Origin: a virus
Direction: 5' to 3' (one strand)
Virus record (IMG/VR): IMGVR_UViG_3300020198_001494
Span: 31,202 to 95,201 of that record
DNA: 64,000 nt
Both the position numbers and the translations under genes were made by a program. Under the pieces are notes generated by a model. That model was given only the letters and a program-made list of their open reading frames with translations. It was not told the DNA's origin and did no database searches. Below are positions 30,303 to 56,009 of the stretch, piece after piece. Positions within the stretch are counted from its first letter, which is position 1, and every line of letters begins with the position of its first letter.

Positions 30303-33300
30303 TTACAAATAATCAAATCTTCTATTTCGCTTTAAATGGCTCTTTATTATTGTTTCTTCCATAATAGCTGGTCCAGGTAATTGTTGTTTATTAAGTTCTT
30401 CTAAATACTGATCCCAGTCAAATTCTTCTTCGTCATCATCTAAAGGCTCAGCGAAAAATATTCCGGACATATTTGACTTATTAGCAGGAGCGGGTTTATA
30501 TGGAGGATCTTCTTCCTCCTCATCTAAAGAACCTAAACCGTCATCTACTTCCCCAGAAAGATCTAAATCTGCAAAAGGATCATCACTACTAACTTCATCG
30601 CCACTTTCTTGTTCTGCATCACTTGGATCTTCTGACTGATCCTCATCTTCCATAAAATAATCTAAACCAGCCTCTTCCTCTGCTGGGTCTTTCTTTTTTT
30701 TATCCTCTTCAGCGAATAATAATCTTCCCCCACCTAAGGAAGCTGTTACTGGCATACCCTTAACTAAAGACTGCACTGAACTGTACCCTGGATTTGCTGC
30801 ATAAGATAAATAAATTGTGTCCTGCTCCTGATTTAGAACATTTCTCAAAACAGCCCCAGGGAAGGCAGGTTGTGCTACCCAGGAAGCTTCAATGAAACGA
30901 ACTGAAGAAGAATCAGACTCATGCCCGCAATTATGAGTAACAATACCATCTATTATATAAGAATGATCCTCTTCTACTTCCAAATTAAATACTTCACCAA
31001 CATATGGTTCAGATTCTATAGAAACAACTTTATGTAAATTATACTTCTCTCCATTATGTTGCCCGCGTGGTTTACTTATCTCTATTTTTCTACAATCGCC
31101 TAGAAAATTACTAAATTGTTTATCGGATAAATCAGAATTTACTGATAAATCATAAACATCTTTTGGAGATAAATAAAGTTGAAAACTTGCTCTCCAATTT
31201 CTATCGTCTTTAACTTCTTCTATATTTCTATTAATGGATCTTAAAGCACTAAGAGTAGTTTTTTTATCGTTAAAAATAACCTGTCCTCTATTCCAAATAT
31301 TTAATCTTGTGGCTATTATCTCAAAATCATGAAATAATTTCTCTGAAGTAGTATAACCCCTAACCCTACCCTGCTCATCTATAGAACCATCACCAGTTAG
31401 CCACCCCTCCAAAAGTTTTCTCTGTATAGAAAGAGGTGATTTAAGTAATTTACTAGAAAGGGATTTTTCCCAGGCTCTTTTTCCAGAACAATGTTTCTTC
31501 ACAAAATACCAAAAGTCTTTAGACTCTACCACCACAGATAATTTTTTTGCTGATGCAATAACTGCTCTAGTACTATTATTAAAATCTTTTATTAAATGAC
31601 CAACATTTTTTTCCATTTCTGAACGTTCATAATGATAAATCTTTACTTTACTATCTTCAAAATCTCTCTCAATTATTTCCTTAATCTTATCAGCAATATC
31701 CATTTCATCATTACCGTTTAAAGTAAAACGTACTTCATAGTTTAATCTAGAGGAATCATCATAATATCCTTCTGCGGCATATAACCCTATAACCCATGCG
31801 GTATCTGCCGTTATTCCGAAGGATCTTCTCGCTGAATCTCTACTTTTTGATATTCTTGGAGCTTGTTTAACTAAAAAATCCCCTACTTTAATATCTTTAG
31901 CTTCTTTAAAAGATAACTCCCCAGTAATTTTATCGTAAACATAATGTGGATGATTGTAAGTAGAGCGTATATTGTTAATGCCACCCTCTATCTTAATGTT
32001 AATTAAATTACCAACAAAATCTTTTCTAAATGTTTTTGTAACTTTTCTCCCAGACCCTTTATGAGTAATTACCATGTCCCCAACATTCACTTCATCGATA
32101 TATTTATATTCACCATCAGCCATAAGAACTTTGTTATCCCAGGGCAGACAGAGTTCTGCTATCATACGAACATTTCCGTATTTATCTTGGAAATATTGTC
32201 CTTTATTAGCTCTAACACAAATACATAAGCCACTTTCATCTGCCGCTAAATTACCACATTTAGTACAGATCGTATAAGCAGCAATACAACCCATAGACAT
32301 TGCATTATAAGATCCAACTCTTATTTTATTAATAAGATCTCTATGTTTTTTATGAGTAGCTACCAAAATATCTGTATACAATGTATCATTATTTACTTCT
32401 CTTAAAACAGCATCTACGATCTTACCCTTAGACAAAGCAGGAACTTGAACATGCTCCACATAATTTTCTGCTCCTATAAATGTTTTATAGGTTTTTTTAA
32501 GGACTCCACGAGTCCAGCTATCACAGTTATGAACTAAAACACCATTAGCTACATAAGTATGATTATCCTCTACCTCTATGTTATAGACTTTATCAGAAAA
32601 AGGTACTTCTTTAATATTTCTAACTGAATGATAAGTAAAATCTTGGTCTGCTAAATAACGTACAAAATTTCTCTTAGTCACTACCTTGAAAGAATAAGTA
32701 GAGTCACGCATAAGATCTTCTAAATATCCTTGTTGTATATTAATTTGATAAGAGTCATTGTCATAAAAAGTCTTACCAGATAACTTTCCAGACGTTCTTA
32801 CTAACTCAGCACCAGTTCCGACATGGAAAAATAATCTAGCATTTATCCCAACTCTTTTTGCTATTTGATAACATTGTTCAATAACTTCTCTATTACTTAA
32901 ACTTACTGAACCTCTTATATCATTTTTTCTAGATTTTGCAGTAAATACTGAACCATCACTTTCTAGTAATCCCATTAAAAGGTAACGTTGAATGTCTACT
33001 GGCCATAAAAGAACTGATGAATGTAACTTTTTTTGCTTAACGTATTGACCAGCATGCTTAATAAACCACTCTGCTGTTTTAGGGGATTTATTAACATTTA
33101 CTATTATGACATTATCATTAATATTATAATATAAAGTACTACCTAATCCAAATTCGTCACTGAGTAATTTCTGGCATAATAAAGCTACATTTTCTTCTTG
33201 TATAGAAAAACTAAATTGTACGGAATATGGGTAATTTTCTTCTGTCTCATTAGGGTATCTTCTGTATAACGGCCTATTTTCAACGTAACCGTCCCCTAAA

Positions 33301-46940: not shown

Positions 46941-47978
46941 CTAATTAACTTTAAAATCTAATTGAAGAAGATCTCCTGCAAATCTTTCATATTTAACTCT
47001 CTGATCTGTAGGCAATTCCTTAGCAGCATTAGTTATATTATTAACTACTTGCCAAAGATTTTCTGATAAAGACGCCCTACCTTCAACCATTTCCATAAAT
47101 TTTGGATTTAATCCCCTTTGAGTTTTAAATTTATTAAATAAACTACGAACATCAGAATTTGTTACTTTTTCTTCAACAGACTTTCTTAAATTACCTAAAC
47201 TAACACTTAAATCATTGTTCATTCTTTCTAATGAATTAGATAGAATTCCAGAAAGATCGGATGTTGCTACACCTTTATAATTACTACTGAAATACGGCTT
47301 ACCGCCATATTTTACAATAAGACCGTTATCGCAAACTGGTCTATAAATCAACGAATCCAATACAAACTTACTAACACCAAGCTCAGATGTTTTAATATGA
47401 AGACCAAGATGACATACCTCACCGTCACCAGGATCAAACTTTTCCTCTAAAGAAACCCTAAAATTTAACACAGAGTCTAGAAAATCAGTTCCCTTAACGA
47501 AAGTAAGCTCCGCTGATTTAAAAGTATCTCTAACTAAGTCAAGTATATCTATGTTATTAACAATAGAAACATCATAATCCACTATAGCCCTAACATAATT
47601 TACGCTATTCTTTTTAAAAACTCGAAATAATTTATGATCTCCGTGTGTACCATTACTTTTTTCTTCAGCTTGTTTAAGAGTCTCTGATAACCAGAAATCC
47701 ATTATATCATCATTTAGATAATTTGGATTCCTTTTTAGGAAATCAAATGGAACTTTAACTATTTTACAAAGCTGTCTAATCGGTGTATCGCCATATAAAA
47801 CGTACTGATCGTTATTAGATCTATCTACAAGAGTGTGTCCTAAATCTTTATCATGTACATATCTAAAGTCCCTTAGATAAAGGTACTTATCTTCTGTTAC
47901 CTCTTTAGTTTTACTAAACTTTTTTATAAGTGCCTCAAAATCAAGGCTCTCACTTACGTTATCAGCTACACTAACCAT
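46941..47978 (-). CDS. DUF932-like phage/plasmid protein
   Basis: From the ATG at 47978, with GGAGG 6 bases upstream, the protein has 345 residues; an in-frame TTG at 47993 lies inside the ribosome site. The pattern RYVHDKDLGHTLVDRSNNDQ, then PFDFLKRNP, SVNYVRAIVDYDVSIVNN, LGLHIKTSELGVSKFVLDSL and NGLIVKYGG fits the DUF932/YfjQ-like family found in phages and plasmids, whose function is unclear. A TATAATTA element lies about 30 bases upstream at 48008-48015, so it starts a unit with the clamp loader and NusG genes. Confidence 0.7.
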   Translation of the reverse strand: MVSVADNVSESLDFEALIKKFSKTKEVTEDKYLYLRDFRYVHDKDLGHTLVDRSNNDQYVLYGDTPIRQLCKIVKVPFDFLKRNPNYLNDDIMDFWLSETLKQAEEKSNGTHGDHKLFRVFKKNSVNYVRAIVDYDVSIVNNIDILDLVRDTFKSAELTFVKGTDFLDSVLNFRVSLEEKFDPGDGEVCHLGLHIKTSELGVSKFVLDSLIYRPVCDNGLIVKYGGKPYFSSNYKGVATSDLSGILSNSLERMNNDLSVSLGNLRKSVEEKVTNSDVRSLFNKFKTQRGLNPKFMEMVEGRASLSENLWQVVNNITNAAKELPTDQRVKYERFAGDLLQLDFKVN

Positions 47979-48007
47979 ACATTTCCTCCACAAAGGTTTT
48001 CCTCATC

Positions 48008-48787: not shown

Positions 48788-49990
48788 CTAAATCGCTACT
48801 ACCACGTTAGCGGACTTAACAACAGCAGAAACATTATCCTGCCTATCTCTAGCTGTTACTTCCGCATAATAAGTTCCTGCATCAGCAATAGCCTCACCGA
48901 CATAGGGTGATGCTATATCAAGAGCCGTAACAACAACTGTATCTGGTGGTCCTACTTTCTTGATAGAAACAGTGAAGTTTTTAATCTGATCATTATCTGC
49001 TGGGGCTGTCCAGGTAACAGTGGGTACTTTAGTATCTGCATTTACGGCCAAGGCCACATTAGTTGGATTAGCTGGGTTAGTGGTATCAATCAGAACATCT
49101 GCTGCATCACTATCTACAGAATAGATACCTCCAGTAGTAAAAGCTCTAACCTTAAAAGAGTAAGTACCTTGAGTGTTTCTAACAAGGGTTATACTTGGAT
49201 TACCATTTACCGGCATTAGAAGAATTGTATTATAGCTTAATAGGCTATTCGGTGTAGTATTAATTACATAATTTGGGTTATTAACTATACCTGATGGATA
49301 AGAAGCTGCTATCTTTATTGGCCTAAAAACACCATCTGACTCTTTTTCTAGGATTTCCCAGAAAATAACTCTCTCGGAAGCTGCTGGTCTATCCCAAGTT
49401 AATGTTACCAATCTAGTATTACCATCTCTACCAGGAGTTCCAGTAAAGTTAGCGGGCTTAGAGGGTCTACCTGTTCTATAACTAGTTTCTAGAGTTGGAT
49501 CAGAATGTACCTCTGGTACAGGTGTACCGGCTCCGGGTAATAACCCAGAGAGTGGGATATCTCTTAATACTGAATTCTCCTCAGCTACATCTGAATGAAC
49601 CACGGTAGCTGAAGTACCGAAACCTGTAACATTTAGCCTATCTTCCAAAGATTTTATTAATTTAACTAAAGATGATTGCTCTTGTAAATTAACGTGGTAA
49701 TTAACTGCTTTCTCAGCATCGGTAATACCAGCCCTAGGATTAATACTCTTTGTCATATTAGGAAGAGCATTAGCTGGGTCGGAATGATGCCCAACAGTAC
49801 GTGAAGCTGTTGGATCTGCCATAGGGCGTTGATCCATATTTGGAAGAGAATTGGAGGGGTCTGTGTGTCCCCCATCTCTTTTTGTAGCTGGAGTCTGTAA
49901 ACCTGGTTGAGCACCAGTTACTGGCCAAGTATAATAACCTGTACCGGCAAATGGATCTGAATGTTCAGCATCTTGTGGACTTAATGGCAT
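48788..49990 (-). CDS. Fibronectin-III virion-type protein with repeated HSDP motifs
   Basis: The protein has 400 residues. The N-terminal ~190 residues contain five copies of a short motif around His-(Ser/Thr)-Asp-Pro (EHSDPFAG, GHTDPSNSLPNM, GHHSDPANALPNM, VHSDVAEE, VHSDPTLET). The C-terminal ~200 residues are two fibronectin-III-like domains (RLVTLTWDRPAASERVIFWE; VPTVTWTAPADNDQIKNFTV, then TYYAEVTARDRQDNVSAVVK). It looks like a tail or capsid surface protein but lies inside the replication block with a hairpin on each side. The HSDP motifs may be docking sites; that is inference. Confidence 0.65.
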   Translation of the reverse strand: MPLSPQDAEHSDPFAGTGYYTWPVTGAQPGLQTPATKRDGGHTDPSNSLPNMDQRPMADPTASRTVGHHSDPANALPNMTKSINPRAGITDAEKAVNYHVNLQEQSSLVKLIKSLEDRLNVTGFGTSATVVHSDVAEENSVLRDIPLSGLLPGAGTPVPEVHSDPTLETSYRTGRPSKPANFTGTPGRDGNTRLVTLTWDRPAASERVIFWEILEKESDGVFRPIKIAASYPSGIVNNPNYVINTTPNSLLSYNTILLMPVNGNPSITLVRNTQGTYSFKVRAFTTGGIYSVDSDAADVLIDTTNPANPTNVALAVNADTKVPTVTWTAPADNDQIKNFTVSIKKVGPPDTVVVTALDIASPYVGEAIADAGTYYAEVTARDRQDNVSAVVKSANVVVAI

Positions 49991-50084: not shown

Positions 50085-50621
50085 TTAAGAAAATAATACC
50101 TTAGAGATATCCTCCACTGACATCTCACTAGAACCATTTTTATTTCCGTTATTTTTACCACTAAGCTGTATATTTTTTGTATCTTTATATGATTTAGATT
50201 TTATAAAAAAGTTTTTAATTTTCTGAATAATTCCTATCTTAATAGTCTCTGGCCCTAAAACCCACTGTAAAATATATAAATCTCTGTACTCATGTTGCAG
50301 CAAATCTGGATCATTTAATACCTTCATATACTCATCGTATATCTGCTGTTTTTCTTTTACTGGGTTAAAATATGGACATTTATAAGAATCAGCTACTGTT
50401 TCACAAATCTTGCCTTCCCACTTTCTCGGATCATTTGAATTATACATACATAGTCCGGTAGTCTCAACTTTAACTTTACCATCAACTACAGTAGTACCAG
50501 ATTGCATGTAATTATGTGTACAGTTCCAAGGTTTAGAACTTAAATGTTTTTGAAAAAGCTTCTCTAAATGTCTACCAACAAGTTGGTCATATTTATGCTT
50601 TATTTCTATTTCACTTTTCAT
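50085..50621 (-). CDS. Hypothetical Cys-containing protein
   Basis: The protein has 178 residues. Conserved-looking cysteines occur as NCTHNYMQSG, GLCMYNS, ICETVADSYKCPYFNP, possibly a zinc or iron-sulfur site. The second half is helical with a hydrophobic run and a hydrophilic linker (KDTNI-like, SGKNNGNKNGSS) and a short acidic end helix. It lies between the C half of Rad50 and the fibronectin-III gene, with a TATAATTA element upstream. Function unknown. Confidence 0.5.
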   Translation of the reverse strand: MKSEIEIKHKYDQLVGRHLEKLFQKHLSSKPWNCTHNYMQSGTTVVDGKVKVETTGLCMYNSNDPRKWEGKICETVADSYKCPYFNPVKEKQQIYDEYMKVLNDPDLLQHEYRDLYILQWVLGPETIKIGIIQKIKNFFIKSKSYKDTKNIQLSGKNNGNKNGSSEMSVEDISKVLFS

Positions 50622-50672: not shown

Positions 50673-51320
50673 TTAATCGTTAATTTTCATAATTAACCTA
50701 TCATTTTTTTCATCTTTATTACACTTATATCTTTTATTAGCACCTAAAGCAAATTGCTCTTGGTGTGTGACTAAAAGAATATCTAACCCCAATTGCTCAG
50801 TTATAACTCTAATAAAGTCTGCTGTTTTTTGTTGAAACTCCTCTGATACACCAGATAAAGACTCATCCAATACAACAAATCTATACAATCCTAAATTAAC
50901 TGTTAAAATTAATCTCATGATTATGCTAACAACACAGGCCATTCCGCCACCAAAATTACCATCAATAGTGGCCTTAACCCCATCTACTTCCAACATAAAA
51001 TCATAATTTAACTGGTCCCTTTTAGTAGACCTCTCTATAAAGAACTTTATACCACTATATTTATCACCAAATATAGTATTTAAACCAAAAGTAACTAACT
51101 TTTCTATCTTAGATATATTCTCAACAGACATTTTATCAAGAAGTGTCTTAAGAACCTCAGAAGTTTGCTGTAGTAATACCTGCTCTTTATTTAAATTAAA
51201 AATCTCATCCTCAATAGATTTTTTTCTGTCTAAAATCTGGTCCCTTCTTCCACTTTCTTTTACCAAATCTTTTATTAATTTATCAGACTTATTTCTTAAG
51301 CTAGATAAATCTTTTATCAT
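50673..51320 (-). CDS. C-terminal half of a split Rad50/SbcC ATPase
   Basis: The protein has 215 residues. The N-terminal ~90 form a coiled coil (KLIKDLVKESGRRDQILDRK). The C-terminal part has the ABC ATPase second-half elements: a GGG-containing signature-like segment (DGNFGGGMACVVSIIMRLIL), Walker B with catalytic acid (YRFVVLDESLSGVSEEF) and the switch His (DILLVTHQEQF). There is no Walker A. The matching N-half with Walker A is at 53742-54917, on the other side of the Mre11-like gene. Together they would rebuild the head of a Rad50/gp46-type enzyme in end processing. Confidence 0.8.
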   Translation of the reverse strand: MIKDLSSLRNKSDKLIKDLVKESGRRDQILDRKKSIEDEIFNLNKEQVLLQQTSEVLKTLLDKMSVENISKIEKLVTFGLNTIFGDKYSGIKFFIERSTKRDQLNYDFMLEVDGVKATIDGNFGGGMACVVSIIMRLILTVNLGLYRFVVLDESLSGVSEEFQQKTADFIRVITEQLGLDILLVTHQEQFALGANKRYKCNKDEKNDRLIMKIND

Positions 51321-51607
51321 GTTGTAAGACCGTCTAACCCTTCCTGTATCTCCCTAAGTTTGTTGCCTACTTCTGCTGTCTTTTTTTCAAAATCCTCTAC
51401 TTTCTTTAGTAAATCTTTCTCTTTCTCATCCTTTATTTCTTCTAATTTTTCTGGATCAATTCCTTTTGCTCTTAATTGACTATCAATAGTGTTTAATTGC
51501 TCTTTTTTAGCTTTTAGCTGCTCCTCTTTACGTATTTTATCCTCTATATAAGATGATAAAAGCTTTTTAGCTGCTATTACTCTTTCCTCAATTGTCTGCA
51601 TTTTCAT
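51317..51607 (-). CDS. Coiled-coil protein linked to the Rad50 C half
   Basis: The protein has 96 residues and is almost all coiled coil (VIAAKKLLSSYIEDKIRKEE, DEKEKDLLKKVEDFEKKTAE). It overlaps the next gene by 4 bases (ATGA-type coupling) and could be a part of the long Rad50 coiled coil encoded separately, though it carries no hook or ATPase motif. This relation is inference. Confidence 0.5.
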   Translation of the reverse strand: MKMQTIEERVIAAKKLLSSYIEDKIRKEEQLKAKKEQLNTIDSQLRAKGIDPEKLEEIKDEKEKDLLKKVEDFEKKTAEVGNKLREIQEGLDGLTT

Positions 51608-51951
51608 TTCTCCTTATTTAAAATTTCCCAATTACTACCGCTAGTAACGAACTCTTTTTCACAAGCTGAGCACATTTTCAATATAATATCTAAATTACTA
51701 TTAAATCTCTGTTTAAACTTTTTAGTTGAATCTGAAATATGATCACGCATTTCACAAACATCTTCCCTAAGCTTCCAGTTATAAAATTCACTAGTACTAC
51801 CATATATAGCAAACCTACCTCTAGAATTACAATTACAACAATCTAATGGGGAGAAACTATAGTAAGATGGATGGTTTAAAAACCCACATTTTAAACATCT
51901 ATAAAGAACATCGTTCAAAAATCTAAACTCCCCAATCCCTGACCCAAACAA
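51604..51951 (-). CDS. Zinc-finger-like small protein
   Basis: The protein has 115 residues with three Cys pairs: CLKCGFLNHP, LDCCNCNSRG and CSACEKEF, compatible with one or two zinc sites. The remainder is helical. It overlaps the end of the nuclease gene by 37 bases and the coiled-coil gene by 4 bases, so the three are translated together. Its role in the recombination module is unknown. Confidence 0.5.
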   Translation of the reverse strand: MFGSGIGEFRFLNDVLYRCLKCGFLNHPSYYSFSPLDCCNCNSRGRFAIYGSTSEFYNWKLREDVCEMRDHISDSTKKFKQRFNSNLDIILKMCSACEKEFVTSGSNWEILNKEK

Positions 51952-52742
51952 TCATACCCTATATTAGACTCTCTAGTCCTTTTATTAATTAATTTATCTG
52001 TACATTCCTCTCTATACGGACAAAATCTACAAGAATCATTTGAAGGTGTAGCACCAAATACCCCATTCTCTATACCCTCAAATGATTTAATTATTTTAGA
52101 TTTCACCCCATCAAGTATATTAGGATCAACATCGTACCAATCAATATCCCCAAACCTTGTATACTGATACCCTATTTCTATTGGCCAATTACCTAACTTA
52201 GCTTTTACAATTATTACGTAATAATAAAGTTGGTCACTATCAAGAAATTTATCCCTACTCTTACCGCTTTTACCGTCTAGAATAAAAATCTTATTATTAT
52301 TCTGTGACAATAAATCTATTCTACCGTTTATTTCATTAGAACCATATGGAATCTTAGCTTTAGCTTCCGCTATAACTTTACCATCTAATAGACCTTGTTC
52401 TTTTAAGGTATTAAAACATTTAGGCATGCAATGAATAGCTAAATTTATATTCTCTGGTAGCTCATTATCACTGTCCCATATTATATACTCCCTTTCTAGA
52501 AGCTTACTGGATATAGCCTCTGTTTCTACAGGTAACCAATCGAGCCAATCTAGCTCGTGTTTTTTATACGTACCGCTCTTTATCCAGTTTTCCAAAAGTC
52601 CTGCTGTTAAATTACCAAAAAAAGCATTTTTCTTATTTTCAGGATCTTTTGGCTTTTGCCTTTTAATATATTTAAGGTGATATTTCTTAGGACAACTTAA
52701 GTAATCCTTCATACCATGAAATGATAAATTTATTCCGCTCAT
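51915..52742 (-). CDS. PD-(D/E)XK nuclease with Fe-S cluster (Cas4/RecB-like)
   Basis: The protein has 275 residues. Motifs: INLSFHGMKDYLSCPKKYHL near the start with Cys17, EINGRIDLL with Asp143, IFILDGKSGK with Asp156 and Lys158, then DQLYYYVIIV. A Cys group near the end (CRFCPYREEC) with Cys17 gives the four-Cys 4Fe-4S pattern of Cas4/AddB-type nucleases. It is probably a 5'-3' or flap exonuclease acting with the Rad50/Mre11 pair. The ATG follows a TATAATTA by 6 bases and lacks a ribosome site, so it may be read as a leaderless message. Confidence 0.82.
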   Translation of the reverse strand: MSGINLSFHGMKDYLSCPKKYHLKYIKRQKPKDPENKKNAFFGNLTAGLLENWIKSGTYKKHELDWLDWLPVETEAISSKLLEREYIIWDSDNELPENINLAIHCMPKCFNTLKEQGLLDGKVIAEAKAKIPYGSNEINGRIDLLSQNNNKIFILDGKSGKSRDKFLDSDQLYYYVIIVKAKLGNWPIEIGYQYTRFGDIDWYDVDPNILDGVKSKIIKSFEGIENGVFGATPSNDSCRFCPYREECTDKLINKRTRESNIGYDCLGQGLGSLDF

Positions 52743-52748
52743 TGTTAG

Positions 52749-52756
52749 TAATTATA
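52749..52756 (-). promoter_or_regulatory. TATAATTA element at the Mre11/nuclease gene boundary
   Basis: The minus strand reads GCTATAATTACTAACAATG. The TAA of the Mre11-like gene is inside it and the ATG is the nuclease start. If it is a -10 element the message would start at or near the ATG. Confidence 0.45.
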
Positions 52757-53741
52757 GCCCACGATTTAAAAGATAATGTAAACTTCTTTCTCTAACTTCC
52801 CCAGAAATTGACATTGATCCAAGTGTATGTTTAACTACACCAGCAGCATTACTAAAAGAAATACTATCATTAGACAACCTATCACAAAATTCTCTAAAAT
52901 CAGACTCATTCTTTTTAGCTAAATCATATTTTTCTATATTAAAAACTCTTTCTGCTGGCTCTATATTTAGCTTTTTTCTTGTAGTTTTATAGGATATCTT
53001 ACCCTTTACTTTTTCTATCTCTAATAAATCTACGAATACCTCTCTTTCAGCAACGTCCTCTGTTAAAGAACCTCTAGTTAAAGAGCCAGGTTGTGAAAAC
53101 ATTTTCTCTATACCAGAACAATTTACTACTTTATAATCTGGTTTTACTGAATGGTCATGTCCTATAAGGAAATAGTCTGCATCTGTTTCTGCTAGCTCTT
53201 TATAACTCCATACATTACTACCGAAAAAATTTCCGCCCTCTGGATTACAAAAATCATGTATAACAGAAACCATAAAATCTACATTTTTTTCTTTTTTCCT
53301 ATCCTCTAAATCAAGTATACCCATACCATATGAAATACCCGATACCTTAACACACAAATCACCTGACTTATACAATACAGGGTCAATATCAACTCTTTTA
53401 AAGGCCCCTGACTCAATTAAAACGGCTAAAGGCTGGTGTTCTAATGTTTCAACTCGACCATAAACCATATCATGGTTACCAGCTACACCACAAAAATCAC
53501 ACCCTAGATCTAAAAACGTTCTAACCATTCTAGATACTAACTTATGAGGTACCTTATACGCATAAGGAACATGAAACACATCACCTGTTGTAACTATAGC
53601 AGATGCTTTACTTTTAATCGCTATATCCCTTATTTGACTAAACTTATTAAATATAGTATCCTCATAATTATCAATTCTAGACACCATTGGTTTATCAGAA
53701 AAATGTAAATCACCTACTAAAACTAAAGATATCTTACTCAT
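52752..53741 (-). CDS. sbcD: Mre11/SbcD-like nuclease subunit
   Basis: The protein has 329 residues. Metallophosphoesterase motifs are in order: VGDLHFS (Asp11, His13), TTGDVFH, AGNHDMVYG, SVIHDF and LIGHDHSVKP. These place two metal ions for nuclease action. It starts directly after the Rad50 N-half stop. With the two Rad50 parts it should form the complex that processes DNA ends for recombination-dependent replication, as T4 gp46/47. The family length is typical. Confidence 0.9.
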   Translation of the reverse strand: MSKISLVLVGDLHFSDKPMVSRIDNYEDTIFNKFSQIRDIAIKSKASAIVTTGDVFHVPYAYKVPHKLVSRMVRTFLDLGCDFCGVAGNHDMVYGRVETLEHQPLAVLIESGAFKRVDIDPVLYKSGDLCVKVSGISYGMGILDLEDRKKEKNVDFMVSVIHDFCNPEGGNFFGSNVWSYKELAETDADYFLIGHDHSVKPDYKVVNCSGIEKMFSQPGSLTRGSLTEDVAEREVFVDLLEIEKVKGKISYKTTRKKLNIEPAERVFNIEKYDLAKKNESDFREFCDRLSNDSISFSNAAGVVKHTLGSMSISGEVRERSLHYLLNRGL

Positions 53742-54917
53742 CTAAACTACCACTTTTTTCTTTATTTCTTGATCGCAAACAGGACAGGTATCTAAATCAC
53801 CTAACAATGAATCTAGCTCATCATGTATATCCTCTATTTTATTTTCAATACTTAATATCTCTTTGGATATACGATCTATAGATTCCAAACACTCATTTCT
53901 ATTCTTACTCATTTTTTCTACTATAGAAAATTCCTGTGTATTTGGCTCATCTGGTATAAGAACTTTAGTCAATTTATTATAAAATTTATTATACAATAAT
54001 AAATTAGACCTTTGTTTAAGTATTTGATTAATTAATTTAACCGATTTCAAAGAATCTTCCGAAAAATCTTCCGGAATTTTTATTTTTGAAATGTCAGATA
54101 ATATACCTATTGTTTTTATATTTGTATTTCTATTTTCTAAAATTGACTCTAATTTACTAACTAATGCTATTAAATTTTGATCTATCTCTTCTGGAATTTT
54201 AACATCACTAACTGATATTAAATAATTTATATCTTTATTTAAGTATTTTCTATTATTTAATAAAGTATTTAAAGAAACTAAATCATTATTACATTTTTCT
54301 ATTATATTTAAATCTAAAGTTAAAGAGTTTCCTTCATTAAAAATATCATCAAAGCTATCGTATCTAGATACCTGTTTATTTACTTTTACTAAATCATCCT
54401 GCCTAGTTTTTACTAAAGATTTTACTTCCCTTAAATCTACTAAGCAATCCTTACCAGCTAAAGAAATAATATCTAATTTTCCTAAAATAGAAAATATATC
54501 AGCAATTGTAGCACCTGATTCCCTCAAAAGAAACAGAACACTGAATTGATCAGTGCCCATTTGAGGTCTTATATTTTTTCTTCCTACCTCTATATCTACA
54601 AAACCAAAACTCTTGAGAATATCTGGAGCATCCCCTCCAACCTTATCGTAATGCTCCCCGTCTACTATATAATAGTTATCTTTAGATCCTTTAACCCACT
54701 CTATGGTATGATCTTCAAACTCAAGAATAACTTTTGAGCTACTTTTTCCTTTACGTACAAAGTCATCACCGCGCCTATTAAACAAAGCACCTTCTATTGC
54801 ACGACAAATAGCGCTCTTACCGGCATTTGATGGGCCGGTAAGAGCGGTAAACCGATCTATCTCAAAATCTACTTTTTCAATAGACTGAAAATCAGATATG
54901 TGTACCTTTATTGTCAC
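53742..54917 (-). CDS. N-terminal half of a split Rad50/SbcC ATPase, ending at the zinc hook
   Basis: The protein has 391 residues and a GTG start directly at the RecA stop. Walker A is GPSNAGKSA, then the Q-loop-like GTDQFSVLFLLRES and a long coiled coil. The frame ends DTCPVCDQEIKKKVVV: the CPVC of the zinc hook is only 10 residues from the end. In normal Rad50 the hook is in the middle and a second coiled coil and Walker B follow; here that half is a separate gene (50673-51320). The break at the hook suggests the two halves meet there. No internal frameshift is seen at the end. Confidence 0.88.
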   Translation of the reverse strand: MTIKVHISDFQSIEKVDFEIDRFTALTGPSNAGKSAICRAIEGALFNRRGDDFVRKGKSSSKVILEFEDHTIEWVKGSKDNYYIVDGEHYDKVGGDAPDILKSFGFVDIEVGRKNIRPQMGTDQFSVLFLLRESGATIADIFSILGKLDIISLAGKDCLVDLREVKSLVKTRQDDLVKVNKQVSRYDSFDDIFNEGNSLTLDLNIIEKCNNDLVSLNTLLNNRKYLNKDINYLISVSDVKIPEEIDQNLIALVSKLESILENRNTNIKTIGILSDISKIKIPEDFSEDSLKSVKLINQILKQRSNLLLYNKFYNKLTKVLIPDEPNTQEFSIVEKMSKNRNECLESIDRISKEILSIENKIEDIHDELDSLLGDLDTCPVCDQEIKKKVVV

Positions 54918-56009
54918 TTATCCCTGTCCTTCCGGATCGTTTTCATCAAAATCAACGTCATCATCTGTAATCTCATCTTCTGGATTATAATCACTAGTAA
55001 CTTGATCCCACTTTAAACTAGATACTATTTCATCATACATATTTTTATTTTCTGGTTTAGCTAAATTTTTAGCAGATTCATTTAATCCTACACCAATTTT
55101 TACGCCCTCATAAGAATAGGTACTACCGGATTTACTCAGTACCCCACAACTTGAGCCAGCATCTAATACTGATAAATAGTTATCAAAGCCGTACCCATAT
55201 CTAATGTATAATTCTCCAGATCTATATGGATCAGCTACTTTATTTTTAGTATTCTTTACCTTTACTTTATTATAAACTTCTACCTGCTCATTTTTATGAG
55301 TCAAATCACTATATACTGTACCCTTCTCTTTTTTCATTAAAGTAAAATGTAGTGATATTGATTTATAGAATTTTAAAGCATTACCGCCTTTTTGTGTCTC
55401 TTGTGGACCCATTCCTGGCATAGCTGCACCAATTTTTGCCATCATTTGGTTGGTCATAAGCATTGTTACATTACTATTATTTAGTAATTTAGTAGCTTTT
55501 ACTAAAAACTTATTCATCCCACGGGCTAATGCACCAATTGTTAAAGTTTGATCTGCATCCTTTTCCCAAACCTCCTTTGGATTCATAGCTGCAACAGAAT
55601 CAACAATTATTAAATCAACTGCCTGCTCATCCATTAAAACACAAGAAAGGTCTGCCCCCTCCTCTAAGGTATTAGGCTGAAAAAGTAAAAACGACTCCGG
55701 ACTTAAATCAACACCTAATTTTCTTGCGTAATTTCTGCTTAAAGCATGTTCATAATCAAAAAATGCCACAGACAAACCTTGTCTTTGGGCACTAGAAGCT
55801 ACAGAAAGAGCTAATGTAGTTTTACCTGTACTGAAATCTCCTGTAATCTCTGTAATTCTTCCTTTTGGGATACCACCCACCCCGGTTACCTTATCGATAA
55901 TTAAAGATCCAGTTGATATAACCTCTACCGGTTTTGGTGTATCGAAGTCCTCCCTAAATATGGACTTATAATCTTTCATTATAAGAGATAAGGCCCTCTG
56001 TCTTGACAT
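54918..56009 (-). CDS. recA: RecA recombinase
   Basis: The protein has 363 residues. Walker A: GDFSTGKTT at residues 57-65; the catalytic Glu in FFDYEHAL; Walker B in VDLIIVDSVAAM; and loop 2-like MGPQETQKGGNALKFY. The C-terminal ~30 residues are very acidic (DDDVDFDENDPEGQ), a common regulatory tail. It forms a filament on single-stranded DNA for strand exchange. It is preceded by AGGAGG and adjoins the resolvase and SbcCD-like genes, forming a clear recombination cluster. It reads as bacterial RecA rather than T4 UvsX. Confidence 0.92.
   Translation of the reverse strand: MSRQRALSLIMKDYKSIFREDFDTPKPVEVISTGSLIIDKVTGVGGIPKGRITEITGDFSTGKTTLALSVASSAQRQGLSVAFFDYEHALSRNYARKLGVDLSPESFLLFQPNTLEEGADLSCVLMDEQAVDLIIVDSVAAMNPKEVWEKDADQTLTIGALARGMNKFLVKATKLLNNSNVTMLMTNQMMAKIGAAMPGMGPQETQKGGNALKFYKSISLHFTLMKKEKGTVYSDLTHKNEQVEVYNKVKVKNTKNKVADPYRSGELYIRYGYGFDNYLSVLDAGSSCGVLSKSGSTYSYEGVKIGVGLNESAKNLAKPENKNMYDEIVSSLKWDQVTSDYNPEDEITDDDVDFDENDPEGQG

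Follow-up and report, generated by a model that had tools for sequence, protein, structure and literature searches.

Rad50 and the SMC proteins are textbook single chains, which fold back on themselves at a hook or a hinge. Phage T4 gp46 is one such chain of 560 residues, with a CPTC hook in its middle (at 288); a preliminary description of the locus studied here had likewise named Rad50 and T4 gp46 as single chains with a central hook. The SbcC proteins of phages SPN3US and T4 have been described as single chains (PMC5105663), and in the excerpt of a jumbo-phage paper considered here (PMC7824862) SbcC is treated as a universal single ATP-binding cassette (ABC) ATPase, with no mention of a split form. 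Mre11/Rad50 fusion proteins (Mimivirus R555 and others) mostly join Mre11 to a whole Rad50; those of Bacillus phage 0305phi8-36 and Anaerostipes are without one P-loop segment (PMC3175470). In a viral contig of 95,201 bp (IMG/VR record IMGVR_UViG_3300020198_001494), of which we analyzed 64,000 nucleotides (positions 31,202 to 95,201; "the window", to which coordinates refer unless a locus is named), the two ends of Rad50 appear to be encoded by separate genes, accompanied by a small third one. We estimate at roughly 0.85 the probability that these genes encode a split, three-piece Rad50/SbcC ATPase and that it acts together with the neighbouring Mre11-like nuclease. Searches of an open-access library returned no description of a split SbcC/Rad50.

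All genes of the cassette lie on the minus strand. The N-half (53742-54917, GTG start) encodes 391 residues, comprising the N-lobe of an ABC head, a helical arm and a terminal zinc-hook motif. In its Walker A motif, GPSNAGKS (residues 28-35; 54813-54836), G28, G33 and K34 are invariant in 80/80 sequences, as is Q124 of the Q-loop (54546-54548; 80/80). The arm (residues 148-373; 53799-54476) belongs to the length class of ~245 residues, and the chain terminates 10 residues past a CPVC motif (residues 378-381; 53775-53786), of which the C, P and C are invariant as well (80/80, alignment A4). The C-half (50673-51320, 215 residues) starts with an arm helix (residues 2-84), followed by a C-lobe that carries the signature FGGGM (residues 123-127; 50940-50954), with Gly in place of the canonical Ser, the Walker B motif VVLDE (residues 149-153; 50862-50876; D152 and E153 invariant in 73/73), a D-loop and an H-loop with the switch residue His186 (50763-50765; His in 69/73); Walker A is absent. 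The preliminary description had assigned Walker A, a coiled coil and the near-terminal CPVC to the first gene, and a coiled coil, a signature-like GGG, Walker B and the switch His without Walker A to the second; motifs and predicted helices bear out both assignments.

The folds match lobe by lobe. An AlphaFold2 model of the N-half, built with 80 relatives (predicted local distance difference test, pLDDT, 85.2; predicted template modelling score, pTM, 0.44), shows a head that takes up the first ~145 residues, after which five separate helices precede the hook (148-184, 189-234, 247-278, 287-317 and 327-373); its Foldseek matches include the N-terminal Rad50 chains 3auy_A, 1f2u_C and 9a9j_A, and RecN 4aby_C. 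The C-half model (73 relatives, pLDDT 95.6) has the P. furiosus Rad50 C-terminal chains 9a9j_B (6.3e-8), 1ii8_B and 1f2u_B, together with further Rad50 structures, among its best matches, beside SMC heads. Profile searches matched the N-half to Pfam AAA_23 (1.2e-6) and to PHROGs phrog_16465, "exonuclease" (6.7e-15), and the C-half to phrog_15167, "ATPase" (1.5e-23); PADLOC matches of the N-half were generic ABC ATPases. The halves of Brevibacillus are less divergent than the window copy, and Rad50 ranks best among their NCBIfam matches. The N-half aligns with positions 4-461 of a Rad50 model that has 883 residues, and the C-half with positions 804-892 of one that has 895. Each gene therefore corresponds to one end of Rad50. 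In the PDB entries 1f2u and 9a9j, the N- and C-terminal parts of Rad50 are also present as separate chains. The catalytic domain of P. furiosus Rad50 was reportedly crystallised from two co-expressed pieces, which indicates that no peptide link is needed to bring the lobes together.

We collected relatives from viral and bacterial DNA. The first two scans of IMG/VR yielded 51 loci for the C-half and 80 for the N-half, and later ones 80 of 375 relatives plus 33 more; these 375 stretches come from one scan of viral contigs that used one subgroup. Nine further loci were taken from GTDB genomes, for which a Bacillus-type alignment (A7) was used. The resulting 259 loci contain 221 N-half, 227 C-half, 217 S and 220 Mre11 open reading frames (ORFs), S being the small third protein. 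None of the 259 loci has an ORF containing both lobes; thus, the search of related phages for fused or split forms that the preliminary description had proposed returned split forms throughout and, inside the family, not one fused form, although relatives were collected by similarity to split members, so that fused ones outside the search patterns could escape. In all 151 distinct loci with both halves, N and C are separate, on one strand and with N first. They are accompanied by S in 151/151 (extended profile) and by Mre11 in 150/151, sited between the halves in 125. A CxxC lies just ahead of the chain end in 168 of the 172 distinct complete N-halves. Recurrence in 151 distinct loci, together with this position of the CxxC, shows that the arrangement is not due to chance. 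Overall, it occurs in at least 150 related stretches, which are viral DNA and a few bacterial ones.

Several loci illustrate the range of this arrangement. In Microcystis phage Mvi-JY20, the genes for N, Mre11, S and C, all annotated as hypothetical, overlap head to tail. The GTDB loci, mostly from Firmicutes (Sutcliffiella, Brevibacillus, Paenibacillus, Moorella and others; L140-L148), have the gene order N-S-C-Mre11. One locus carries a natural Mre11::N-half fusion of 772 residues (L051:7075-9393) with separate S and C-half, which supports a contact between Mre11 and the N-half. A clamp::C-half fusion was suspected from long ORFs; it was not supported, long C-half ORFs being mostly spurious upstream extensions. 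In three N-halves (L017:3394-5640, L021:2683-4803 and L088:4609-6729), an intein-like insertion of ~300 residues lies in Walker A, directly after GK. In trees of 50 split members and 12 one-chain references, inferred for N, C and both jointly, all 50 split members group together; node support is low (0.25-0.66), so that a single origin is only suggested.

The third gene encodes the small coiled-coil protein S (51317-51607, 96 residues), with two helical stretches flanking a GIDP turn; it lies just before the C-half, as noted at the outset, and overlaps its start by 4 nt (ATGA). S proteins have 77-104 residues as a rule, and the turn that separates their two helical stretches reads G-[IV]-x-P or similar (alignment A6). 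A profile first found S in slightly over half of the loci, and inspection then turned up an S-like gene in almost all others. The gene lies upstream of the C-half, either next to it or separated from it by a sliding-clamp gene (phrog_947). By this record of sequences, S is an obligate third component and no bystander. Bacillus-type S matches phrog_18563, which is annotated "unknown function". The intervening clamp gene is seen at L002:18503-19636 and in many marine loci, and is not there in the window. S was also considered as a homologue of T4 gp46.1/46.2; this was rejected, the sequences being dissimilar by eye.

The genes that the preliminary description had named as lying between the halves are indeed found there. 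The Mre11/SbcD-like nuclease (52752-53741, 329 residues; Pfam Metallophos 1.4e-7, NCBIfam Mre11_Sulfo 3.6e-10) has GDLH, GDV, GNHD and GHDH motifs and, on inspection of its sequence, retains the metal-binding motifs. It is followed by a PD-(D/E)XK exonuclease of the Cas4/RecB-like type (51915-52742; Pfam PDDEXK_1 7.2e-18), a recurrent operon neighbour, and by a zinc-ribbon-like protein with Cys pairs (51604-51951), for which a profile search found no homologue in the other loci and which is probably outside the core system. A RecA-like gene (54918-56009; Pfam RecA), the N-half and Mre11 abut without gaps; the exonuclease, zinc protein, S and C-half follow. Near the cassette, a Cys-rich protein of 178 residues (50085-50621) has 49 homologous ORFs in the first locus set, usually directly after the C-half. 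The replication operon also includes, between the primase-like and Cys-rich genes, a 400-residue protein with repeats that by eye resemble fibronectin type III (48788-49990), and a 350-residue protein (46941-47993) adjoins a DnaX-like clamp loader; the only homologue of this 350-residue protein among the fetched loci is in L060.

Rad50/gp46 is normally a single chain, T4 gp46 having matches in 3825 phage records, and the locus could accordingly be a Rad50 gene recently broken by rearrangement and no longer functional. This is almost certainly wrong, being refuted by the identical split in 151 distinct loci of diverse phages with conserved catalytic motifs. It is also very improbable that the halves come from two different ABC ATPases and are not partners. 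They do lie far apart in two phages, namely ~109 kb in Tunturi_5 (L006/L007), on opposite strands, and ~93 kb in Magritte (L005), both in record coordinates; however, when linked, they are always on the same strand with N first, and each half is without exactly what the other has. In the 95-kb contig AAA_23 finds the N-half alone, the C-half profile finds the C-half alone, and SMC_N finds the N-half alone, weakly. In four phage records, too, AAA_23 has just one match apiece, namely the N-half in LR745208 (485 kb), vB_BboS-125 and Magritte, and a different gene, weakly matched, in Tunturi_5. A full-length Rad50 elsewhere in the genome, which would have spoken against a split according to the preliminary description, was found neither in the contig nor in these four records. 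We also consider it very improbable that the ATPase is of the RecN or SMC kind instead of Rad50. The top fold matches of the halves do include RecN 4aby and SMC 5h66, and the window N-half matches NCBIfam RecN at 8e-7. However, RecN and SMC have neither a zinc hook nor an Mre11 partner, and here the CPxC hook is present, Mre11 accompanies the halves in 150 of the 151 loci, both Brevibacillus halves prefer Rad50, and locus L065 has a match to Pfam Rad50_zn_hook (E 0.002, below the family cut-off).

It should be noted that several observations weigh against a split Rad50. The N-half model has a pTM of only 0.44, and its fold matches comprise RecN and SMC heads besides Rad50; in a profile comparison, the C-half scores weakly against T4 gp46; two N-halves, of Magritte and of locus L110, are without the terminal hook; and the contig in which no full-length Rad50 was found has 95 kb and is possibly incomplete. 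The signature is altered as well. Compared to LSGGE of SbcC, the aligned split C-halves read x-G-G-(G/A/S)-(V/I/L/M), with Gly taking the place of the Ser in 72/73. Among the members used for the trees, it is Gly in 50/50 split members versus Ser in 12/12 one-chain references; thus, the split members do not have a Ser-type ABC signature (LSGGE or S-x-G-E/Q). The signature Ser is important for ATP sandwiching in Rad50, and its replacement by Gly throughout suggests that the ATP chemistry may differ. Since Walker B and the switch His are retained, a complete loss of ATPase activity is unlikely.

A further point concerns the arm. N-arm length, measured from the start of the first arm helix to the hook, ranges from 148 to 349 residues and falls into classes near 152, 198, 245, 302 and 348. 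For 164 sequences, the best period is ~49 (R 0.74; under a uniform null, the 99th percentile is 0.26), and sequence autocorrelation within the N-arms peaks at a lag of 47 (z 18); these statistics are descriptive, because the sequences are related and shared lengths are not independent. Neighbouring branches can differ by one step (for example, 237 residues in L079 versus 197 in L080), so that repeats seem to come and go singly. Meanwhile, S (88±6 residues) and C (210±4) are constant in length and uncorrelated with the N-arm. A minimal N-arm (~150) equals S plus the C-arm helix (~88 + 60) and would suit a symmetric arm, whereas longer N-arms do not. Because the N-arm varies in ~47-residue steps with S and C unchanged, a plain antiparallel N:C coil is unlikely. 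The preliminary description had placed the break at the hook as a natural boundary; this stands with respect to the terminal CxxC, but not in the sense of a single long coil severed where it turns back, which misfits the lengths.

These lengths are the basis of a reading in which the Rad50-like head assembles, but the N-half mainly builds the arm; it refines, and does not exclude, a split Rad50, and we consider the odds for it about even. The ~47-residue repeats would pack on themselves, on the N-arm of a partner or on several copies of S, so that the hook would sit on a self-supporting rod and not at the end of a coiled coil formed by N and C. The length ladder with its periodicity, the constancy of S and C, and the five separate helices of the model all favour such an arm; conversely, at its pTM the model does not resolve how the helices pack, and related sequences share lengths. 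A further step, which we regard as rather doubtful, is a three-subunit Rad50 of distinct build, with a rod of repeats made by the N-half only, a chain-terminal hook, decoration by S (perhaps one per repeat) and a Ser-less signature implying altered ATP sandwiching.

Returning to the split Rad50, we propose the following assembly. The N-half would supply Walker A, the Q-loop and the long helical arm ending in the CPVC zinc hook, and the C-half the short arm helix, signature, Walker B, D-loop and H-loop; the two would join non-covalently into one ABC head, two of which would sandwich ATP in the manner of Rad50. One zinc held by two terminal CPVC motifs could tie two complexes or two arms, and S may supply or brace the returning arm strand. 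With Mre11, the complex would prepare DNA ends for the adjacent RecA/UvsX-like recombinase, and so serve end processing and recombination while the phage DNA is replicated.

Compared to Rad50/SbcC with Mre11/SbcD (archaeal Rad50 and E. coli SbcC), the locus has the same N-lobe with Walker A and Q-loop, the same C-lobe with Walker B, D-loop and H-loop, a CPxC hook and an Mre11 partner; it differs in having two polypeptides plus a small third, the hook at a chain end, Gly for the signature Ser, and arms of asymmetric length. With T4 gp46/gp47, T5 D13/D12 and their relatives, which are single-chain phage SbcC systems, it shares the character of a phage recombination nuclease complex with genes in the replication region; unlike the split form, T4 gp46 is one chain and keeps S-x-G-E. 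The Mre11/Rad50 fusions (PMC3175470) are similar in being virus-borne and rearranged, and the fusion in L051 likewise joins Mre11, in this case to the N-half. A separate C-half gene could explain the P-loop segment missing from the fusions of 0305phi8-36 and Anaerostipes, and Bacillus phage 0305phi8-36 is perhaps a member of the split kind. Phage replication and transcription enzymes in separate pieces have precedents in jumbo phages, the excerpted paper giving a minimal Pol III alpha and RNA polymerase beta and beta' as split enzymes (PMC7824862).

Taken together, the motifs, lobe-matched folds, Mre11 neighbour, lack of a full-length Rad50 in the records searched and conservation across very different phages support a Rad50/SbcC divided at the hook, and a split Rad50 is well supported at the level of genes and predicted folds. 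One consequence is a correction of annotation: the halves are currently labelled "exonuclease", "ATPase", "chromosome segregation protein" or "hypothetical", and the PHROGs families of the N-half, C-half and Bacillus-type S (phrog_16465, phrog_15167 and phrog_18563) are unlinked in the library annotation. The separate halves are also natural small pieces for structural work, and separate genes allow hook, arm length and head to be probed one at a time for what each contributes. That the halves are separate genes in a widespread lineage suggests that covalent fold-back is not required. If the distinct three-subunit build is true, these phages would have a different way to make an SMC-like machine, and not a cut copy of the standard one.

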